From NCBI GenBank assembly GCA_947460235.1, contig CANHGK010000002.1, forward strand, positions 1-64,000: a stretch of DNA of 64,000 nt. Reading direction: 5' to 3'. Positions 41,937 to 55,150 of this stretch are shown here, in pieces (position 1 is the stretch's first letter; every line of letters begins with the position of its first letter). Under the pieces are notes generated by a model. The model searched no databases and had not been told where the DNA came from. It saw nothing but the letters and a program-made list of their open reading frames with translations. The translations under genes and the position numbers were made by a program. The DNA comes from Paenibacillaceae bacterium. Its GTDB lineage: Bacteria > Bacillota > Bacilli > Paenibacillales > CANHGK01.

Positions 41937-43298
41937 GTGGAAGAACCGCTACTAGCGCTATGGGAAGAAGTGCTGGCGGCACTGCAAACTCGTGTAAGTA
42001 AAACAAGTTTTGATACTTGGTTGAAATCTACGAGAGCAATTGCCCTTGATGATCATTATTTACAATTGATTACACCTAATGAATTTACACGTGAATGGCT
42101 AGAAATGAGATATGCAGAAATCATCAAGACGATTGTTTTCGAACTTACCGGTAACCGTGTTGAAATCGGAATCGAAATTAGACCTGATGAAGATAACTTA
42201 AAGCCTGTAATACAGACTAAACCACAACGTGTCATCCAACGTGATCAATCATTAGAAGAAATGGGTTCAAATATGTTGAATCCAAAATATACATTTGACA
42301 CATTTGTCATTGGAACGAACAATAGATTTGCACACGCAGCTTCACTTGCAGTAGCTGAAGCACCGGCCAGAGCATACAATCCTCTTTTTTTATATGGAGG
42401 TGTAGGTTTAGGAAAAACCCACTTAATGCACGCAATTGGTCATTATATTATGGAACACAATCCGGAAATGCGCGTTTTGTATATATCATCAGAGAAATTT
42501 ACGAATGAATTCATTAATTCAATTATGAACAACCGCACTGAAAACTTTCGTAACAAATACCGCAATATCGATATCCTATTAATTGATGATATTCAATTTT
42601 TAGCCGGAAAAGAACAAACTCAAGAAGAATTTTTCCATACATTTAATGCACTACACGAAGAAGCAAAACAAATTATCATTTCATCCGACAGACCACCAAA
42701 AGAAATTCCTACATTAGAGGACCGTTTACGTTCTCGATTTGAATGGGGTTTGATAACAGATATTCAACCACCAGACTTAGAAACACGAATAGCTATTTTA
42801 CGTAAGAAAGCAAAAGCAGAACAGTTGGATATATCGAATGATGTAATGATCTATATCGCAAGTCAGGTTGACACGAACATTCGTGAATTAGAAGGTGCGT
42901 TAATCCGTGTTGTCGCCTACTCATCATTGATAAATCAAGATATTTCCGTTCAATTAGCTTCAGAAGCATTAAAAGACATTGTAAACAATACAAAAAGTCG
43001 ATTGATTTCAATTGCGGACATTCAACAAAAAGTTAGCGAGTTTTATGAAATCAGACTAGAAGATTTTAAAGCAAGAAAAAGAACGAAAGCCGTTTCACTG
43101 CCTCGCCAAGTAGCTATGTATTTAACAAGAGAACTGACAGACTACTCTTTACCAAAGATCGGTGAAGCTTTCGGCGGACGTGATCATACAACAGTTATCC
43201 ATGCATATGACAAAATTTCTGAATCAATCAAAATAGATTCAGAACTCGCAAAAGTAATTCAATCCATCCGAGAACAACTTAAAAATCAATCTATGTGA
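41937..43298 (+). CDS. dnaA: Chromosomal replication initiator DnaA
   Basis: 453 residues. Domain I is at about 1-80 and domain II is a short linker (about 85-105). The AAA+ domain has Walker [13 protein letters not shown], Walker [13 protein letters not shown] and the Box VII Arg region. Domain IV carries the signature [18 protein letters not shown] start with GAAGGAGAG. DnaA boxes occur on both sides, and one box overlaps its stop codon. Confidence 0.98.
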
Positions 43299-43440
43299 AT
43301 AACTTCTATTTTTGCATTAAGTTATTCACAGGTAGATTCGAATAAAAAAAGGTTGGTAATACTGATACAAACAGACTTATCCACATATCCACGCCACCTA
43401 TTACTATTACTGAAAGATTTAAATAAAAAAATAAAAAGAA
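43294..43440 (+). other. oriC, downstream DnaA boxes, DnaA-trios and unwinding element
   Basis: The dnaA-dnaN gap has TGTGAATAA (43294-43302, minus-strand TTATTCACA), TTATTCACA (43322-43330) and TTATCCACA (43377-43385). After a short GC-richer spacer the complementary strand reads TAA-TAG-TAA-TAG (43399-43412), a DnaA-trio-like run. An A/T-only-rich stretch (43419-43440) suits duplex unwinding. The order box-GC spacer-trio-AT tract is that of the B. subtilis unwinding site. Confidence 0.75.
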
Positions 43441-43455
43441 AAGGTGTTGTAAGCG

Positions 43456-44598
43456 ATGAGATGCCTAATCCAAATCGAAGCGTTGAACGCTGCAATTCAA
43501 GATGTTTTAAAAGCGATTTCATCAAAACCACTAATTCCTATTTTAAGTGGAATTAAAATTGAAGCTAGAAATGATGGAATACTTTTAACTGCAAGTGATT
43601 CCGAAATCACAATTCAACGATTCATACCTGTTGAACAAGAACCTGGAAAAAGAGTTGCTACAATTGAAGAAAAAGGAGCAATTATTTTACCAGCAAAAGT
43701 ATTAGCTGAATTAATTCGAAAAATGCCTGGAAAAGAGCTTGAAATTCACTCAAATGAACAATTTCAAGCATGGATTAGAGCAGGTAAATCAGAAGTACAA
43801 TTATTAGGTTTCGATCCAGAAGATTATCCGCCAATTCCACAAGTAGATGATCGAATGAGCGTTACACTACCAAGTGAAGTTTTAAAATCAATTATTCGTC
43901 AAACAATCTTTGCTTCGTCCGTAGTTGAATCAGCTGGTATTTTAACTGGAACACTATGGCAATGGGATGAGCAACAGTTTACTTGCGTTGCAACAGATCG
44001 TCACCGCTTAGCAAAACGTACTCTTCACTTAGATACACTGAATTCGAAGCAACAATTAGTATTGCCTTCGAAAACATTAAGTGAATTGACAAAACTTTTA
44101 CCAGATCAAAACCAATTAATCTCATTTATATGCGCGGAACATCAAATTTTATTCCAATGGGATAATGCTTGGTTCTATTCTCGTGTATTAGATGGAGTTT
44201 ATCCGGATACATCTAAAATTATTCCAACACAATTTAAGACAGAAATGGTGTTACCTACAGCAGTATTGCGCGATTCAATTGACCGTGCCTCTCTCATGTC
44301 TCGTGAAGAAAAATCAAATGTCGTTCAATTAACGACACTTGAAAATCAAGTGATTGAGATTTCTTCAAGTACAACAGAAATTGGTAAAGTAACCGAAAAA
44401 ATAGAATTGAATCGTTTTAATGGTGAATCACTTAAAATTTCATTTAACTCTAAATTTATTATGGATGTTTTGCGCGTAATCGACAGCGAACTTGTATATA
44501 TTGGTTTTACAGGTCCAATGAGTCCGATCATTGTAAAACCAGAAGATGAAACACAATTGATTCATCTGATTCTTCCATACCGTACAACGGGGAAATAA
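43456..44598 (+). CDS. dnaN: DNA polymerase III sliding clamp (beta)
   Basis: 380 residues, three clamp subdomains; KPLIPILSGIKIEA, GFDPEDYPPIP, ATDRHRLAKR and the C-terminal PIIVKPED...HLILPYRT match beta clamps. ATG with AAAGGTG. Follows dnaA across the origin unwinding region. Confidence 0.97.
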   Translation: MRCLIQIEALNAAIQDVLKAISSKPLIPILSGIKIEARNDGILLTASDSEITIQRFIPVEQEPGKRVATIEEKGAIILPAKVLAELIRKMPGKELEIHSNEQFQAWIRAGKSEVQLLGFDPEDYPPIPQVDDRMSVTLPSEVLKSIIRQTIFASSVVESAGILTGTLWQWDEQQFTCVATDRHRLAKRTLHLDTLNSKQQLVLPSKTLSELTKLLPDQNQLISFICAEHQILFQWDNAWFYSRVLDGVYPDTSKIIPTQFKTEMVLPTAVLRDSIDRASLMSREEKSNVVQLTTLENQVIEISSSTTEIGKVTEKIELNRFNGESLKISFNSKFIMDVLRVIDSELVYIGFTGPMSPIIVKPEDETQLIHLILPYRTTGK

Positions 44599-44613
44599 CG
44601 AGGCAACAGTCGA

Positions 44614-44850
44614 ATGAAAAAAATTAAAATTTCAACGTCATATATTACACTTGGGCAAGTGCTAAAATTGGCTGATTGGATTGATTCTGGTGGAATGGCC
44701 AAAATGTTTTTGGCGGAATACACGGTAATGATTAATGGCGAACAAGATCAACGAAGAGGTCGTAAGTTAGTACCTGGCGATATCGTTGAAGTTGCCGGTG
44801 TGGGAAAATGTCAAATTACATCCCGATCGGAATCAGGGAGCATCTCGTGA
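44614..44850 (+). CDS. yaaA: S4-domain RNA-binding protein YaaA
   Basis: 78 residues with an S4-like fold: TLGQVLKLADWIDSGGMAK, VMINGEQDQRRGRKLVPGDIVEV. Conserved between dnaN and recF in Bacillota; it has been linked to ribosome assembly. Overlaps recF start by four bases (GTGA). Confidence 0.93.
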   Translation: MKKIKISTSYITLGQVLKLADWIDSGGMAKMFLAEYTVMINGEQDQRRGRKLVPGDIVEVAGVGKCQITSRSESGSIS

Positions 44851-45953
44851 AGCTGAAAGAACTCCAGTTACAACATTTTCGTAATTTTAAGACGCTTGAT
44901 GTTACGTTTGACGGACAAGTAACGTTTCTTGTTGGCCGAAATGCACAAGGAAAGACGAATTTGCTTGAAGCGATCTATTCTCTAGCGCTTACAAAATCTC
45001 ACCGAACGCATACGGATCAAGAACTTATTTTATGGAATGAGCCGTGGGCTCGTGTTTCTGCAAAATTAGATAAAAAATATGGCGCTTGTGATTTGGATAT
45101 TATTTGGACGCCAAAAGGTAAAAAAACAAAGATTAATGGTCTCGAACAAAAAAAGCTCAGTGATTTTGTGGGTATGTGTAATGTTGTGTTGTTCGCACCC
45201 GAGGATCTTGAGATTGTAAAGGGAGCGCCGGCAAACCGTCGGCGCTTTTTAGATATGGAATTGGGTCAGGTCCAGCCTGCTTACATACATTTGTTATCTA
45301 GATATCAAAAAGTGTTAACACAGCGCAATCAATTGCTGAAGCAAAGCGCAGTTCGTGGTATGATAAGTGATAGTATTGGCCATTCCTTATTTGATGTGTG
45401 GAATGAACAATTAATCGAACTTGGGATGCAAGTATCTCAGAGACGTAGATTGTTTATCGATCAACTTAATAAATGGGCAAATCCAATTCATCATGGGATT
45501 ACAGATGGTCAAGAACAATTAAAGTTGATTTATAAATCAGGAATTCCTGAAGATAATCCTGATATTTGGCGTGATAAATTAGTTGCACAGCTAGATCGTG
45601 AAATCCGGCAATCGACTACGCTAACTGGACCTCATCGAGATGATTTTACATTTATGGTGAATGAACGAGATGTTCAGACATACGGTTCTCAAGGTCAACA
45701 GCGTACAACGGCATTATCAGTGAAACTTGCCGAGATGGAATTAATTCACCATGAGATTGGTGAATATCCCTTGGTCTTGCTAGATGATGTACTTTCAGAA
45801 TTAGATCCTTATCGCCAAACTCATTTACTTGAAACAGTACAAGAACGTGCGCAAGTTTTTATTACAACTACTTCGTTGGATGGCGTGAATTGGAAGAAAA
45901 TGAAGGATCCAGTATGTTATCATGTAGTGGATGGCGGAATTGCACGTTCGTAG
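44847..45953 (+). CDS. recF: DNA replication and repair protein RecF
   Basis: 368 residues. SMC-like ATPase: LQHFRNF, Walker A GRNAQGKTNLLEAIY, signature TYGSQGQQRTTALSVKLAE and Walker B PLVLLDDVLSELD. GTG start 44847-44849 with AGGGAG seven bases upstream, inside the yaaA end; the longer frame start at 44808 is not supported. Confidence 0.97.
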   Translation: MKLKELQLQHFRNFKTLDVTFDGQVTFLVGRNAQGKTNLLEAIYSLALTKSHRTHTDQELILWNEPWARVSAKLDKKYGACDLDIIWTPKGKKTKINGLEQKKLSDFVGMCNVVLFAPEDLEIVKGAPANRRRFLDMELGQVQPAYIHLLSRYQKVLTQRNQLLKQSAVRGMISDSIGHSLFDVWNEQLIELGMQVSQRRRLFIDQLNKWANPIHHGITDGQEQLKLIYKSGIPEDNPDIWRDKLVAQLDREIRQSTTLTGPHRDDFTFMVNERDVQTYGSQGQQRTTALSVKLAEMELIHHEIGEYPLVLLDDVLSELDPYRQTHLLETVQERAQVFITTTSLDGVNWKKMKDPVCYHVVDGGIARS

Positions 45954-45965
45954 GGAGGATTAACA

Positions 45966-48142
<2,177 letters not shown>

Positions 48143-48374: not shown

Positions 48375-48432
48375 AACACCTCCAAGAGAAATACAATATC
48401 TTTCGACATTGTACATTTTTCTTGAAGGTGTT
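48375..48432. repeat. Long imperfect hairpin between gyrB and the ECF operon
   Basis: AACACCTCCAAGA...ACAAT pairs with ATTGT...TCTTGAAGGTGTT over about 25 bp with a few mismatches. It could terminate the converging ECF operon or be part of a small mobile-element relic. Confidence 0.6.
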
Positions 48433-48492
48433 CTTATGTGTTTCAGTCTTTGAGTCAGTCCCGTCCCTATCTCACGTTACGGAAAACCGTTT

Positions 48493-50283
48493 TTATAGTG
48501 CACGAAACCATTGATAAATGAGTTGCGCGGCTTGCAGTCGTGTGAGGGTTGAAGTGTCTATTGGTTTTACTAATTTCGTTGTTTTGATAAGTTGTAATGC
48601 TGAAAAGAGCGTATTGTTTGTTGATTTTATTATTTTTAAATGAACTGTTGGATCAATGGATTTTAAAATGAGTTGTAGATCTTTTATTGAAAGTAATTTG
48701 CTTGGTTTCCACATATTTTTAGTTACCGGAGGAATCCAATGTAATGCAACCATTGATGAAATCACAGAACGTGATGAGGACGTTCCTGAAATGTCGTGAA
48801 ATGGCGCTTTTAAGCTTGATTGTTTTGACATACGAACATGTAGCCAATCATAGACGGATAATTGATTTGCGACTGCTTGTAGTGCCAAATACGATTGAAT
48901 TGTAGACATAGGGTTTGATTTTCCGTTGATTGCGTGTGAAAAACCACCATCTTCACGTTGAAATTTTAATAATGCATCGATCGGTGTATTTCCATTTGTA
49001 GTTGTCCAATTAACAATTTGTTCTTTCCATGCAATAAGTGCTTGAATAATAGCCGCGTTTGTTTCCGCATTTTCTTTTACAATAGATAAAAAACCACCAT
49101 TTTCATTTTGCCATTGATGAATTCGATCAAACGCACGGATGACGAGTGGATCGTCTCGCGTAAGACCGAGTACTTTTGCAGCAATTAATGCCATTGCGGT
49201 CATATCCGGGTCAGAAGAAGATTTTGAATTGGCTTCTGCAGACCAATAAAAAGATCCATTTTCATGTTGTTGAACGCGTAAATAAGCGATTGCTTGTTCT
49301 TTGTCATTTAGTTTACCACCGGAGGAATAAAGACTTAATATAGCATAAACATGGGAGTTTACTAGTGTTTCCCCTTGCCCATTCAATTGATCGGCGAACG
49401 CGCCAGAAGATCGCTGTGCAGCTTGGATTATATTTTGATAAATAAAAATAGTTCGTTTGACATCCTCGGACTCGGGAAGAGAAGATAATGCGATCAAATG
49501 TCTTTCAATATCTGTAAGTGCGGTAAAAGGTGTTAAAGGTTCTGTAGATTTAATTCCTTTGATTTTTGGCTTGCAAACCGATTCTGCATTATGAAAATAA
49601 GCTGCAAGCACTGTCCAATCATCGGAGCGATTATTTGTAAAAGAATTAATAATTGGACATGCTTGTTGAATTGCTTGTTCTGTTGAGGTTTGGGCTGCAA
49701 AAGCAGATTGGTTAAATGAGTTTGGAATGATCAACATGAAGAATGCAAGTAGAATAACACCAGATAACTTAGATTTAAACCGATACATCGGTTTAACAAG
49801 CGGCCAGCCAATTGCAATAAATCCGATATTTGCACTAGCATGTGCTAGATCAAATAAGAAACTTTGCGCACAAACTATTAACCATGCAGACCACGTATGC
49901 GGATAAAATGCCCACCACGTCCATCCGTTCATAATCCAACCAAAGAAAAATCCCCACACAAACACCCAAGACCAACGAAACCATGTAGGACCTTTTACTA
50001 TCCAATTTCCAATTAAACCACTTGTAATCCCCATCAATCCCCATGCGAGTATTTGCCAAATTGTCCACGGACCGTGACCAAAAAATAAATTAGATCCTAA
50101 AGTCGTACAAATGGCGACGGCTAAACCAACTCTTGGTCCAAAAATTGCACCGACAATTATTATTAATGCACTGACCGGTTTAATATTTGGAAATGGTGCA
50201 AACATGATTCGACCCAAAATAGCGAATGCAGATAAACTTGCGACGAGAGAAATGATTCTTGCTCGATGTGCGCGTAGACTCAT
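48493..50283 (-). CDS. ECF transporter S component fused to extracellular alpha/alpha-barrel and SLH-like tail (predicted cobalamin uptake)
   Basis: 596 residues. About six membrane helices (10-30, 36-60, 72-95, 100-125, 130-160, 172-190), with an AxxxA motif in TM1 (A15, A19) as used by S components to dock EcfT. After an AFAA sequence (about 195) comes an outside domain (200-480) with Q-x-x-x-G-G-F-type repeats (QQHENGSF 338-345, WQNENGGF 391-398, FQREDGGF 441-448), typical of prenyltransferase/squalene-cyclase-like alpha/alpha barrels. The last ~100 residues (FHDISG..., TRLQAAQLIYQWF) resemble one full and one truncated SLH repeat. It overlaps the ATPase gene (ATGA), last of a riboswitch-controlled operon. 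Substrate B12 is inferred from the riboswitch. Confidence 0.8.
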   Translation of the reverse strand: MSLRAHRARIISLVASLSAFAILGRIMFAPFPNIKPVSALIIIVGAIFGPRVGLAVAICTTLGSNLFFGHGPWTIWQILAWGLMGITSGLIGNWIVKGPTWFRWSWVFVWGFFFGWIMNGWTWWAFYPHTWSAWLIVCAQSFLFDLAHASANIGFIAIGWPLVKPMYRFKSKLSGVILLAFFMLIIPNSFNQSAFAAQTSTEQAIQQACPIINSFTNNRSDDWTVLAAYFHNAESVCKPKIKGIKSTEPLTPFTALTDIERHLIALSSLPESEDVKRTIFIYQNIIQAAQRSSGAFADQLNGQGETLVNSHVYAILSLYSSGGKLNDKEQAIAYLRVQQHENGSFYWSAEANSKSSSDPDMTAMALIAAKVLGLTRDDPLVIRAFDRIHQWQNENGGFLSIVKENAETNAAIIQALIAWKEQIVNWTTTNGNTPIDALLKFQREDGGFSHAINGKSNPMSTIQSYLALQAVANQLSVYDWLHVRMSKQSSLKAPFHDISGTSSSRSVISSMVALHWIPPVTKNMWKPSKLLSIKDLQLILKSIDPTVHLKIIKSTNNTLFSALQLIKTTKLVKPIDTSTLTRLQAAQLIYQWFRAL

Positions 50284-51872
50284 TGTTGATCACGTCCCTT
50301 CTTTTGTGAGCGAAGGTATTGAACAGCTTGAGTTAATTGATAATGTCCAGTTAACGGAACAAGTGATGATTGATATAGTCCTGGCGATTTAAATAATCGT
50401 TCAGCGTCATATTCCGTTAGCTGAATATAATCACGTGTGCCTGATGATTGAAGCAACCAAACGTGATTGGCCCATTCTGCCGTAAAATCAAGATCATGAG
50501 AAGAAATTAGGGCAGTTCCACCACTCTCGCGATATGAGATGAGCCATGAGACAAATTGATTTTTTTGACGAATACTTAATCCGCTTGTTGGTTCATCCAT
50601 TAAAAGAAGAAGCGGTCTTCGAATAAGCACAGTTGCCAACGCTGCACGATGCCGTTCCCCACTACTCAAATCTCTAGGATGTGCATTTAAAATATTCGAT
50701 GATAGTTCAAGCGCGTCACAAATTTGATCAAACCGTCCCTGTTCTAATGATCGGTCTAGGCCCATCAGCGAAATGCTGTAATCTAATTCTTTAGAAATGG
50801 AATCGTGAATTAAATGATCATATGGATTTTGAGATACGTACCCGAACCAACGACTGCGCTCAGCAGGAGACCAGTTGGTAAGGTCTAACCCACTTTGTAA
50901 TTGTATTGTTCCTTGGATTGGTGTTATTAAGCCTGCTAATGCCCGCAAAAATGTCGATTTCCCAGAACCATTTGGACCGAATAAGGCAGTAAGTGAATTG
51001 GAACGTAAGATGGATTGAATATTATTTAAAATAATTTCATTATTTTCGTAAGCGCAGGTTAGTCTGTTTATATGAATATCATCAATTGGTTTATTTTTAA
51101 GTTTTGATTGTTTTGGTTTCAATTGATTTTCTTCGGTGATCGACATCGCGGTTGCTCGCTTCGTTAGCGGTAACCAATCACGCCAAAATATCGAATTCAC
51201 GGCAAAATCAAACCAGTGATCGACAGATCCATCCCAAATAATGCTGCCCTTGTCCATCATGATCACGCGTGTTGCTAGTGGTAACCAATGTTCAATCCGA
51301 TGATCTGCAACGATTAACGAGTGTTTTTTATTAGATATCCAATCGCGAACGAGTGTTGTTAATTTTTGGATGCATTGAACATCTAGGTGTGCAATGGGTT
51401 CATCTAAAATAAATAAATCAGGATCTGTCAATGAAATTGCGCCAATTAGCAGACGCTGTTTTTCTCCAGTTGAAAGTGTTTGGACTTCGCGGTTCTGCCA
51501 CGATTGGACTGGTAACCAAGATTGAACGTGTTCAAGCCGTCGGTCCATCTCTTTTCGTGAAAATCCTAGTTGTTCCATGCCAAATACCAGTTCACCAAGC
51601 ACATCTGGCATGATGATTTGTTGCTCTGGATCTTGCATAACAAATCCACTATTAAACGTATGATTGAGACTATGAATTTGTAATAAACCACCATAAAAAT
51701 CAGGAATTAATCCTTGAAGAATACGCAAAAAAGTCGATTTCCCAGCACCTGAAGAACCAATCAACAAAACGAATTCGCCAGGTTGAATTGAAAAGGAATC
51801 GATTGAAACATTCCAGGTATCTGAATTAGTAGAGGGATACCGATATCGGATTTGTTCAAAATGGATCGTCAT
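50280..51872 (-). CDS. ecfA: Energy-coupling factor ATPase, fused EcfA-EcfA'
   Basis: 530 residues with two ABC domains in one chain. Domain 1: Walker A GSSGAGKS (39-46), signature LSTGE (133-137), Walker B LFILDEP, H-loop VADHR. Domain 2: Walker A GPNGSGKS (299-306), signature LSSGE (about 400), Walker B LLLMDEP, H-loop SSHD. This is the energising pair of an ECF importer. ATG overlaps the ecfT stop (ATGA), and the S component overlaps its own stop, so subunits are made in fixed order. Confidence 0.92.
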   Translation of the reverse strand: MTIHFEQIRYRYPSTNSDTWNVSIDSFSIQPGEFVLLIGSSGAGKSTFLRILQGLIPDFYGGLLQIHSLNHTFNSGFVMQDPEQQIIMPDVLGELVFGMEQLGFSRKEMDRRLEHVQSWLPVQSWQNREVQTLSTGEKQRLLIGAISLTDPDLFILDEPIAHLDVQCIQKLTTLVRDWISNKKHSLIVADHRIEHWLPLATRVIMMDKGSIIWDGSVDHWFDFAVNSIFWRDWLPLTKRATAMSITEENQLKPKQSKLKNKPIDDIHINRLTCAYENNEIILNNIQSILRSNSLTALFGPNGSGKSTFLRALAGLITPIQGTIQLQSGLDLTNWSPAERSRWFGYVSQNPYDHLIHDSISKELDYSISLMGLDRSLEQGRFDQICDALELSSNILNAHPRDLSSGERHRAALATVLIRRPLLLLMDEPTSGLSIRQKNQFVSWLISYRESGGTALISSHDLDFTAEWANHVWLLQSSGTRDYIQLTEYDAERLFKSPGLYQSSLVPLTGHYQLTQAVQYLRSQKKGRDQQ

Positions 51873-52690
51873 ACGCCACGTCTCTGCTGTGCGTATGCAC
51901 GTTGTATTTCAAAAGGAATAAGTAATGCGACTAAAAGTTCCGGAACCCAAATTGAAAAGATCGAAAATAGGATACATAACAATATAAGCAGATCAAACCA
52001 ACTCCACTGTTCAGCGGCATAAATTGTTCGTTTATGATTACCATAACCTCTCGCAATCATTGCTTCCGCACGGTGCCATGAACCTTCCAGTGACTCATCA
52101 AGCAATGCTTGAAGCAGAGGAAGGCGAACAAGAATTGATTGTTTCCATGTTCGATTTGAATCTGGTTGAAATCCTCGCGTTTGTAACACGTCCAGTAAAT
52201 GCTTACTACGTTCGCGTAATACGGGTACTAATCGTAAGGTCATATAAATCATCTGTGTACCGTCAGGAAATAATTGCGCGGTAAATGGCAAAAGTCTTTT
52301 TGTAGGCAATAACGGCTGAATGGCAATAAATAAAAACCAAAACATCAAAAAGCGGATCATTGAAATGGTTGTATCATTTATCGCTTCCATTGTCGTCCGC
52401 CAATGTAAATTGAGATCAAAATTAAACAATGTGATGGTACCCTGCCATTCGAGAAGCACGTGCTGCCCATCATGGCGGAGTACTAGTTGTATTAGTGAAA
52501 ACAAAATCAAAAAGCGAATCATCCACTTTCCCTGCTGAATTATTGTCGACCATTGCTTCGTCCGCCAAACGATCCAAAGTACAAGAAAAGACTCGATCAA
52601 TAATGCGAAAAGATCATCAAATAACCAAATCAATGAGAATAAAATAATTGCATAGACTAACCAGGAAAAAATATGACCGCGAGTTTGCAT
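51869..52690 (-). CDS. ecfT: Energy-coupling factor transmembrane protein EcfT (CbiQ family)
   Basis: 273 residues. Membrane helices at about 8-42, 55-70, 110-128 and 232-262. Two cytoplasmic coupling motifs, TRG (171-173) and ARG (213-215), sit in the helices that contact the ATPases. It links the fused ATPase to the S component. ATG with GGAGGAAAC, sharing one base with the preceding stop codon (TAATG). Confidence 0.9.
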   Translation of the reverse strand: MQTRGHIFSWLVYAIILFSLIWLFDDLFALLIESFLVLWIVWRTKQWSTIIQQGKWMIRFLILFSLIQLVLRHDGQHVLLEWQGTITLFNFDLNLHWRTTMEAINDTTISMIRFLMFWFLFIAIQPLLPTKRLLPFTAQLFPDGTQMIYMTLRLVPVLRERSKHLLDVLQTRGFQPDSNRTWKQSILVRLPLLQALLDESLEGSWHRAEAMIARGYGNHKRTIYAAEQWSWFDLLILLCILFSIFSIWVPELLVALLIPFEIQRAYAQQRRGV

Positions 52691-53535
52691 TAGTCGTTTC
52701 CTCCTTCAACTGGAATAAGAGTGGAACCATTAAGTGTTGCAGCGGCCCATCCATGCCATACCGATGAAGAAGAAAGAAGAGTAATCATTGAACGCGCATT
52801 TTTTTCGTTGTTTGCTTCGAGTGTCCAGACAATTGGACGAGATTCATTGAGACGACTGCGTGTTGCGCGAAACAGCGCATCCGATTTTACGGATGAAACG
52901 ATCCGGAATGAAGGTGTTTCAATAGATTCTATTTTTACATCAGAAATATTAGTTAAAACGATCGGAGCAGAACAAACGGTGGCAATCCAAAATTGGAGTT
53001 CTTCAGCAGCCTTTTCAAAACCTTGATCATAAATAATTTGCAGTGTTTGATTTTGATTCATTGCAATAAATGGTTGCGGGAACGAGCCAATCATCGCATC
53101 AATATCGTCTTTTCCATTCCCCCAGGAGTGAAAATCCCACTGAATCAAATCACCATGATGAATGAACACATCCCCTGCCCCGTTATCAGATAACAAACCA
53201 TTCACATAAAAAAACCAATCGTTTTTTTTACGGTCTGTCCATGATTTTGAGGTATAACCAGATTCTAGACCATTAATTGCATTAATAAATGTACCGTCAT
53301 ACGCTGTTTTGATTTGAAAATGTTGTTTCATTGCAGAAAGTAGATTTAATGTATTATCAACTGTACCATTGTATGATCCAATTTTTTTTGTGCCAAAATC
53401 TCGCGTTATTAAAATTGAAAACGTATTCGGTAAAACGGATGAGTGGGCAGTTTCATGCTTTGAGAATTGAATTTGGCAACCGCAAATGATAACAAGAACG
53501 AACATCACCATAACGAAACGCAAAGAACGAATCAT
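52690..53535 (-). CDS. DUF4430 lipoprotein (predicted cobalamin-binding partner)
   Basis: 281 residues from ATG 53533-53535 (AAGGAGGTGA upstream). Lipoprotein signal with lipobox ICGC (C20). Residues about 36-138 form a DUF4430 domain: NTLNLLSAMKQH helix, WFFYVNG (107-113), HHGDLIQWDF (126-135). DUF4430 is related to the C-terminal domain of transcobalamin/intrinsic factor (family knowledge, from memory). The C-terminal half (about 145-281) is a mixed alpha/beta region I do not recognise. It probably sits on the outer face of the membrane beside the ECF complex. Confidence 0.8.
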   Translation of the reverse strand: MIRSLRFVMVMFVLVIICGCQIQFSKHETAHSSVLPNTFSILITRDFGTKKIGSYNGTVDNTLNLLSAMKQHFQIKTAYDGTFINAINGLESGYTSKSWTDRKKNDWFFYVNGLLSDNGAGDVFIHHGDLIQWDFHSWGNGKDDIDAMIGSFPQPFIAMNQNQTLQIIYDQGFEKAAEELQFWIATVCSAPIVLTNISDVKIESIETPSFRIVSSVKSDALFRATRSRLNESRPIVWTLEANNEKNARSMITLLSSSSVWHGWAAATLNGSTLIPVEGGND

Positions 53536-53568
53536 GACCACTCACCTCCTTCATTTAATGAAAAATAG

Positions 53569-54759
53569 TTATTGTTGAACGTCATCAATCATGCGAAGCA
53601 CGTGTACAAACTCAGCGCGAGTGATCGCCTGATTTGGATGGTACGTACGATCTGCATATCCGTTAATTATCGCGCGATTTGCGATTGCTTGAACTGCTGT
53701 CAATGCGGTTGAAGAAATTGATTTTTGGTCACGCCAGTTTGAATTTACAGGTTGAAGTACTGGGAACTTTGAATTTAATGTGGGTGTGGATGTTAAAACT
53801 TCATTCAAAATAACGGCCATTTGTTGTCGTGTGACCGTTTGGAATGATGATTTGTAATTAGCAGTTGCTAACCATTTAGAAATTGGAGCATTTTTAAAAA
53901 GAACGCTAAAAGCATCTGTTAATTCAGCGAAACTAACGGGTTCGTTAGGAGCAAAAGTTTGATTTTTTTTGAGTGGCAACCAACCGCGCGCTGCGTTGCG
54001 GATGATGCACGGATACGCCCAAAACGTTGATTTGATATCGCTAATCTTGGATCCATCGAATTGAATTGGTAAGGTGAGCGTGCGGCTTTTTACAAGTAAA
54101 GGTAATCCATTGGACGGGTCATATTTTTCAACGGTAACATGTAATGGAGCACCCGTTGGAATTGTAATTTGCGCCGATCCAGTTGCATCGGTTTTTAGTT
54201 GGATGAAGGATTGATCGTTTTGGTTAATAGAGACCATCGCGTCAGGGATCGTTACGATCGATGTTGATGCGTTCCAATTTTCATCATACATTGTTTTCGT
54301 TGCAGACGTATGGATAGTTACGATTTGACCAGGTTGATAAACAGCTTGTTTTGGTGAAAAATCTACAATCGGATACAATGTGGATGAATAATCATAAATT
54401 GACCACACAATTTCATCACCGTTATTAATAGAGGTCTGATCTGCACCAACTTCTGGCGATTGAGCGTTTACCCAGAACCCCCACCCACTTGATGCGGATA
54501 TTTTCTTTTCGGCTAAACCGGCCACAGATATTACATATGGACCATACGTTGTGTCTTTCGTTTGAACAGATAAATTTTTAGAAGATGCAAATGTTTTTAA
54601 TGCACTTAATGCATCTGGTTTCGATGGAGTGATCCAGCCTTCATAGCTACCACCAGGACCTGTAATGATTCGAACAAGTACTTCGTTTGCTGCAAAAACA
54701 GGTTGTGCCATAATCAAAATAATCACGGAAATGAGTAAAAAACTAATGTAACGTTTCAA
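53569..54759 (-). CDS. S-layer-anchored DUF4430 protein (predicted cobalamin capture)
   Basis: 396 residues from TTG 54757-54759, which has GGGAGGA; the longer frame runs back into the terminator and riboswitch and is not real. Signal peptide (about 1-24, PVFA-A), DUF4430 (about 25-125: GWGFWVNA 92-99, NNGDEIVWS 112-120), an Ig-like domain (about 128-240, QPGQIVTIH) and two to three SLH repeats (about 255-396, with WLPLKKN..FAPNEPVS and GYADRTYHPNQAITRAEF). First gene of the riboswitch-led operon, so likely the outermost ligand-binding element. Confidence 0.82.
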   Translation of the reverse strand: MKRYISFLLISVIILIMAQPVFAANEVLVRIITGPGGSYEGWITPSKPDALSALKTFASSKNLSVQTKDTTYGPYVISVAGLAEKKISASSGWGFWVNAQSPEVGADQTSINNGDEIVWSIYDYSSTLYPIVDFSPKQAVYQPGQIVTIHTSATKTMYDENWNASTSIVTIPDAMVSINQNDQSFIQLKTDATGSAQITIPTGAPLHVTVEKYDPSNGLPLLVKSRTLTLPIQFDGSKISDIKSTFWAYPCIIRNAARGWLPLKKNQTFAPNEPVSFAELTDAFSVLFKNAPISKWLATANYKSSFQTVTRQQMAVILNEVLTSTPTLNSKFPVLQPVNSNWRDQKSISSTALTAVQAIANRAIINGYADRTYHPNQAITRAEFVHVLRMIDDVQQ

Positions 54760-54834: not shown

Positions 54835-54899
54835 AGATTCGTACGCATTCAAAACAAAACCACGAAATAGATCTGATGTGTGCACGCATCAGCAAATTG

Positions 54900-55150
54900 A
54901 GGTTCATGATCTGCGTCCGCATTCCTTCCCTCCGAAGGTGATCGGGTCTGAAATCGTACGCAGGTATCCTGGCTTAGGGGTCATCTGATGCTTGAAGCCT
55001 TCTCATCCAATGTTGGACAATGGCATCGTCTCAAGTTCATCACCCTTAACAGTAGCGGGGGCTGCAGCGGATTTGAACCGCTTTCCCTCCAATAATCTCA
55101 TCGATTACTGGGCGCTCCATTCCATAAAAATGGCGGAGTGCAACATACAA
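54900..55150 (-). promoter_or_regulatory. Cobalamin (B12) riboswitch aptamer
   Basis: Minus strand carries the class hallmarks in order: GAGGGAAAGCGGTTCAAATCCGC, GCAGCCCCCGCTACTGT, the long peripheral arm, GATGACCCC..AAGCCAGGATACCTGC (B12 box region) and the closing GGTTCAAxATCCGC-type pairing. It is followed by an intrinsic terminator. It controls the DUF4430/ECF operon. Confidence 0.95.

Follow-up and report, generated by a model that had tools for sequence, protein, structure and literature searches.

A CbrT-type ECF S component fused to a predicted extracytoplasmic toroid in a riboswitch-preceded operon of a Paenibacillaceae bacterium

Ending after helix 6 is typical of ECF S components, although homology does not require it. 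What, then, is to be made of an S component that runs on into a TM7-like segment and a large toroid? The protein that raises this question, P0001, is encoded in a Paenibacillaceae draft genome, within a stretch of 64,000 nucleotides that was analyzed as a whole and is called the window here. An initial annotation had read its frame as one protein, an S component joined to an outer barrel and a degenerate SLH-like end. The single-protein reading holds: 596 codons on the minus strand are open without a stop, and a genome search returned one match to the frame. P0001 is the last of five genes behind a cobalamin riboswitch, which a whole-genome search showed to be the only one in the genome. The gene order is DUF4430-SLH protein, DUF4430 lipoprotein, EcfT, EcfA-A', and fusion, with the following features.

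54942-55132, minus strand: cobalamin riboswitch (RF00174), 5' of the operon, 104.7 bits against a gathering threshold of 31.5
53569-54759, minus strand: gene 1, secreted DUF4430 (beta-grasp) protein with C-terminal SLH repeats (PF14478, E 5e-11; SLH, E 8e-15)
52690-53541, minus strand: gene 2 (P0003), DUF4430 protein with a lipobox-like N terminus (PF14478, E 1e-13)
51869-52690, minus strand: gene 3 (P0004), EcfT, transmembrane coupling subunit (xRG motifs at residues 171-173 and 213-215)
50280-51872, minus strand: gene 4, EcfA-EcfA' fused ATPase, two nucleotide-binding domains in one chain (TIGR04521, E 6e-72, two stretches; PF00005, E 3e-48)
48493-50283, minus strand: gene 5 (P0001), fusion protein of 596 amino acids, an uninterrupted open reading frame
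49768-50283, minus strand: P0001 residues 1-172, CbrT-type S component (match to 6fnp_A; AxxxA in helix 1)
49696-49767, minus strand: P0001 residues 173-196, former signal peptide of the toroid, now a probable TM7 (hydropathy; alignment to the signal peptides of relatives)
48820-49695, minus strand: P0001 residues 197-488, alpha/alpha toroid, predicted extracytoplasmic (Pfam, Foldseek, VIA)
48496-48819, minus strand: P0001 residues 489-596, tail in place of the SLH repeats of relatives, mostly unrecognizable (alignment)
48496-48552, minus strand: P0001 residues 578-596, resembling the end of the last SLH repeat (shuffle test)

The longest open frame of gene 1 begins at 54885, and inspection of the sequence points to the TTG at 54759, preceded by GGAGG, as the likely start. 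P0004 alone matched no Pfam family; in alignment A5, which comprises P0004 and ten relatives, 9 of the 11 sequences matched CbiQ (PF02361), and R172, G173, R214, and G215 of the two motifs are invariant in the EcfT alignment.

The N-terminal half of P0001 had been taken for an S component over residues 1 to 195, and a PDB search confirmed this for residues 1 to 172, with CbrT (6fnp_A, E 4.4e-15, over residues 8 to 172) as the only significant match. CbrT of Lactobacillus delbrueckii is a characterized cobalamin S component (PMC5997447). Helix 1 of P0001 contains an AxxxA motif (A15-S-L-S-A19) that is shared with many relatives and that, in S components, has been linked to docking on the ECF module (PMC11109136); the genes for EcfT and EcfA/A' adjoin the S-component-bearing gene. 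In an AlphaFold2 model of P0001, built from a 27-sequence alignment, the S half is mostly above pLDDT 90. A fold search with the whole model returned toroid matches only, and the S half was identified by sequence. Since P0001 continues past helix 6, we class it as a protein with a CbrT-type S domain and not as a standard S component. Its best Pfam name is that of a riboflavin family (PF07155, ECF-ribofla_trS, E 2e-6), as might be expected of an S component for another vitamin. Because CbrT is the sole significant PDB match, we read this label as a superfamily name only, and the cobalamin riboswitch on the operon also argues against a different vitamin, to which we assign hardly any probability. 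The substrate of the S domain is most likely B12 (cobamide).

The barrel that had been noted behind the S unit is an alpha/alpha toroid according to Pfam (PF00432, E 7e-8; PF13249, E 2e-8; prenyltransferase/squalene-cyclase families) and the AlphaFold2 model, where pLDDT is mostly above 90 over about residues 310 to 480 and lower at 210 to 260. The three Q-x-x-x-G-G-F-type repeats described earlier are indeed present (QHENGSF, QNENGGF, and QREDGGF), the first with GSF in place of GGF. In Foldseek and VIA comparisons, the toroid groups with squalene-hopene cyclases (VIA-align Z 23 over 260 aligned residues) and the beta subunits of farnesyl/geranylgeranyl transferases, and by sequence it is likewise closest to squalene-hopene cyclase and prenyltransferase toroids. 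The fold is shared with the transcobalamin/intrinsic factor family but is common to many other families with many roles. Conceivably, then, the toroid does not bind B12 and is instead an enzyme, a binder of cell wall or glycans, or a passive spacer, encoded together with a transporter by coincidence. However, inspection of P0001 showed that it lacks the DXDD motif of squalene-hopene/class II cyclases, bovine transcobalamin (2bb6, E 6e-4) is also among the Foldseek matches of the toroid, and linkage to a cobalamin riboswitch, a CbrT-type S component, and DUF4430 proteins recurs. We consider a toroid without a role in B12 binding improbable. When the PDB was searched by sequence with the toroid profile, transcobalamin was not among the matches, and neither P0001 nor any of 18 toroids matched PF01122 (eukaryotic cobalamin-binding protein) at E <= 1.

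The companion beta domain also resembles the animal B12 carriers. For residues 37 to 141 of P0003 (model m357072a9b840), the best matches among solved structures were the beta domains of transcobalamin, haptocorrin, and intrinsic factor, at Z 11 to 12.4 (bovine transcobalamin 2bb6, Z 12.4, rmsd 2.5, 92 residues aligned; 4kki, Z 12.2; 3kq4, Z 11.7), while a sequence search of the PDB with P0003 found no transcobalamin match. The link between the operon and transcobalamin is thus one of predicted fold and context. The animal proteins combine a toroid and a beta-grasp domain in one soluble chain, whereas the window operon encodes the two halves in different proteins, one of them membrane bound. 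As the toroid and the beta domain occupy separate chains and PF01122 is not matched, we do not class P0001 as a member of the transcobalamin/intrinsic factor family. P0003 also has a second domain (residues 151 to 275; window positions 52717 to 53091) that in the model resembles BcsB domains (Z 11) and the N-terminal domains of glycoside hydrolases (Z 8 to 10), a likeness that may hint at binding of cell wall glycans.

Operons of this general kind have been described. Burroughs et al. predicted in 2007 that operons combining SLBB (transcobalamin-like), toroid, CbiO, and CbiQ proteins scavenge B12 (PMC1796856). The available part of that report bases the transcobalamin-like scavenger on domain and operon context; it depicts secreted DUF4430 and toroid proteins encoded with an ABC ATPase and a CbiQ-like protein in genomes without B12 synthesis genes. 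The window operon has the same features, with DUF4430, toroid, and CbiO/CbiQ proteins, and a search of the genome for two synthesis genes, CbiD and CbiC, found neither. A BtuC-type permease was not found in the genome either, the only FecCD match being an ABC-3 permease. Users of B12 are encoded, namely, MetH, a cobalamin adenosyltransferase, and two MerR-type B12-binding proteins. Given these users and the lack of matches for CbiD, CbiC, and BtuC, the operon is probably the B12 import route of this genome. The two MerR-type proteins, with B12-binding domains, adjoin each other (G000:C10:71156-72414) and are CarH-like light or B12 sensors. Another probable user is a radical SAM protein (G000:C4:111552-111911) that contains a B12-binding domain and DUF4080.

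We therefore favor, as a probable reading, an ECF-type B12 (cobamide) importer with a split transcobalamin-like surface capture apparatus, the toroid of which is tethered to the S component. The DUF4430 proteins (the beta-grasp half) and the toroid (the alpha half) would sandwich B12 outside the cell, as do the two domains of transcobalamin and intrinsic factor. The vitamin would then pass from the sandwich to the CbrT-type S component and be delivered with EcfT and EcfA-A'.

How the toroid could be held outside follows from the junction of the two halves. Hydropathy analysis indicated an extra hydrophobic stretch (residues 167 to 197) after the helices of the S component. Here YRFKSKL, the conserved basic C terminus of the S component, runs directly into the h-region LSGVILLAFFMLII, followed by SAFA-AQ, where the hyphen marks the putative cleavage point. 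Compared with relatives, the 10- to 20-residue tail of the S component, its stop codon, and the toroid's own start are missing. In other words, the toroid gene would have joined the S gene in frame such that the basic C terminus took over the role of the signal peptide n-region, and the signal peptide core became TM7. By the positive-inside rule, the S component has both termini inside, and TM7 would therefore place the toroid outside. The signal peptide core of the toroid is likely TM7, with the toroid outside. An outside location had been proposed before; the retained core predicts it, and no evidence for a cytoplasmic barrel was found. In the AlphaFold2 model, the linker at residues 175 to 197, the TM7 region, has low confidence, and the connection between TM6 and TM7 is very short. 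No Shine-Dalgarno-like motif was detected in nucleotides 420 to 640 of the P0001 frame; by itself this proves nothing, as the EcfA gene in this operon has no clear motif either.

The same junction presents the two main difficulties for a tethered toroid. One is the toppling model of S components, in which they tip over within the membrane; TM7 might hinder this movement, and C-terminal extensions limit it in related receptors (PMC11109136). Furthermore, the signal peptidase site looks intact and may still be cut. AFA-AQ is canonical at -3/-1 and sits where the signal peptides of relatives end in the alignment, and the lengths of the h-region and c-region are signal peptide-like. All of this would suit a self-splitting polyprotein, in which signal peptidase I cuts after AFA and releases the toroid from an S component of seven helices; the fusion would then alter translation only, not the working parts. 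A toroid released in this way, here without an SLH anchor, might diffuse away, and the decay of the SLH repeats is easier to explain if the toroid stays tethered. We regard cleavage of this kind as rather unlikely and continue to favor an uncleaved, membrane-held toroid.

The C-terminal tail bears on this choice. It comprises about 107 residues in P0001 versus about 180 in SLH-bearing relatives and is of low confidence in the AlphaFold2 model. Pfam SLH gave no match at E <= 1, and a profile of the whole SLH tails of relatives scored the P0001 tail at 3.9 bits, a value exceeded by 2 of 1,000 shuffles; membership of the whole tail in the SLH family was rejected on these scores. The last 19 residues (STLTRLQAAQLIYQWFRAL), compared with the end of the last SLH repeat in the related locus L054 (ATVTRAEAAVLIYRLLRIR), scored 40, against a best of 26 among 20,000 shuffles. 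The proposed degenerate SLH-like end is thus still recognizable by alignment in these 19 residues, and the remainder does not score above chance. In relatives, the SLH repeats are probably the wall anchors of the toroid. With the membrane instead holding the toroid above the S component, they would no longer be needed and would have decayed.

In the relatives that were examined closely, among them Actinomycetota MAGs (L001, L002) and many Bacillota, the S component and the toroid are encoded by separate, adjacent genes, usually with an overlap of 4 to 20 nucleotides. A cobalamin riboswitch was found in 8 of the 10 related loci scanned. The toroids of relatives start with canonical signal peptides and in two groups, f46 and f32, end in SLH repeats (by alignment; one tail was confirmed by Pfam). 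The f46 group has the gene order of the window operon, with S component and toroid separate. An outer domain, suspected at first to be an unusual design, is therefore usual in this family; what is unusual is its covalent fusion. The toroid is joined to other partners as well. A surface protein of 1,769 residues (L057:2803-8109), with a cobalamin riboswitch upstream, contains four DUF4430 domains, toroid matches at two places, and SLH repeats, and possibly is a multisite B12 binder on the cell surface. It unites toroid and beta domain in one chain, in parallel with the union of toroid and S component in the window. In L003, L004, and L006, two DUF4430 domains and a toroid-like stretch, identified by BLAST to the window toroid, form one chain adjoining the S gene; the stretch in L006 had no Pfam toroid match.

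A second S-toroid-SLH frame, of 739 codons without a stop, was found in L075, in a one-contig genome (G549). It retains GGAGG and an in-frame GTG just before the signal peptide of the toroid, and fused and separate toroids may therefore both be made. In trees of the toroid and of the S component, the two fusions grouped together in 0 of 200 bootstrap trees, and the window toroid was placed by the unfused f46 genes, which suggests that the fusions are apparently independent. Both halves of the window fusion are on long branches, so this placement is uncertain and a single origin with L075 is formally possible. Three states, seen in different lineages, resemble stages of a single path: overlapping genes, read-through with an internal start, and full fusion accompanied by SLH decay. 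Two other candidates (G338 and G175), which had first appeared as long open frames, were rejected as S-toroid fusions; their genes are separate, in the same frame, with a TAA between.

The second fusion also bears on whether P0001 results from an error in sequencing or assembly, or is a gene in decay. The window fusion comes from a single draft genome in 42 contigs for which searches yielded no relative from the same family, and the long branches and degenerate tail would fit decay. However, a single indel would not suffice to create a junction in which YRFKSKL is in place while the S tail and the toroid start are gone; moreover, the frame is open throughout, the toroid motifs are retained, and L075 is in a one-contig genome. 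An artefact or a decaying gene is thus very improbable.

A more specific version of the reading that we favor, to which we give about an even chance, is that P0001 unites receptor and translocator in a single chain and is the first ECF S component to which an extracytoplasmic capture domain is covalently tethered. This domain, half of a split transcobalamin, would receive B12 together with the separate beta-domain lipoprotein and hand it directly to the S component, membrane tethering having replaced wall anchoring. Tethering would raise the local B12 supply to the translocator. The ABC importers GlnPQ and OpuA have fused substrate-binding domains, and tethering raises the local concentration at the translocator. 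P0001 resembles them in having a putative outer binding domain tethered to a translocator but differs in transporter class and in its unrelated binding domain. ECF-CbrT of L. delbrueckii (6fnp; PMC5997447), homologous to P0001 over residues 8 to 172, is a B12 importer driven by EcfT and EcfA/A', as the window system is proposed to be. In contrast, its S component is a stand-alone subunit on a shared group II ECF module, with no outer domain and no dedicated DUF4430 operon. The available part of the 2007 report (PMC1796856) describes no S-component fusion, whereas toroid and S component form one covalent chain in the window. We found no description of such a fusion in the open-licence PMC literature, where absence is not proof. 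Thus, B12-scavenging SLBB/toroid operons were known as a prediction, so far as that part of the report goes, and the joining of toroid and S component appears to be new.

Through a natural fusion of this kind, the toroid is physically linked to a B12 transporter, and two proteins, P0001 and P0003, would suffice to test the idea. The fusion suggests that relatives catch B12 outside with a split intrinsic factor-like pair and pass it to the pump. A further suggestion is that ECF S components can accommodate a seventh helix plus an outer domain, which would constrain the toppling model. The fusion may also be relevant to the origin of animal intrinsic factor.

Many other Bacillota have triple fusions of EcfA, EcfA', and a CbrT-type S component (L079:1342-3852 and L080 to L091; about 825 to 1,060 codons), some of which have hydrophobic segments inserted between the ATPase and S-component parts. 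These long frames were rejected as toroid fusions. Like P0001, they join a CbrT-like S component to a neighboring operon product, but the partner is a cytoplasmic ATPase and not an outer domain. At the locus itself, an inverted repeat seen by eye directly past the operon (window positions 48375 to 48440; AACACCTCCAAGA / TCTTGAAGGTGTT, with a long loop) is perhaps its terminator; it is absent from the output of a repeat scan with a loop limit of 8. Finally, open reading frames that by eye resemble dnaA, dnaN, recF, and gyrB (window positions 41937 to 48142) adjoin the B12 operon, which therefore probably lies near the replication origin.
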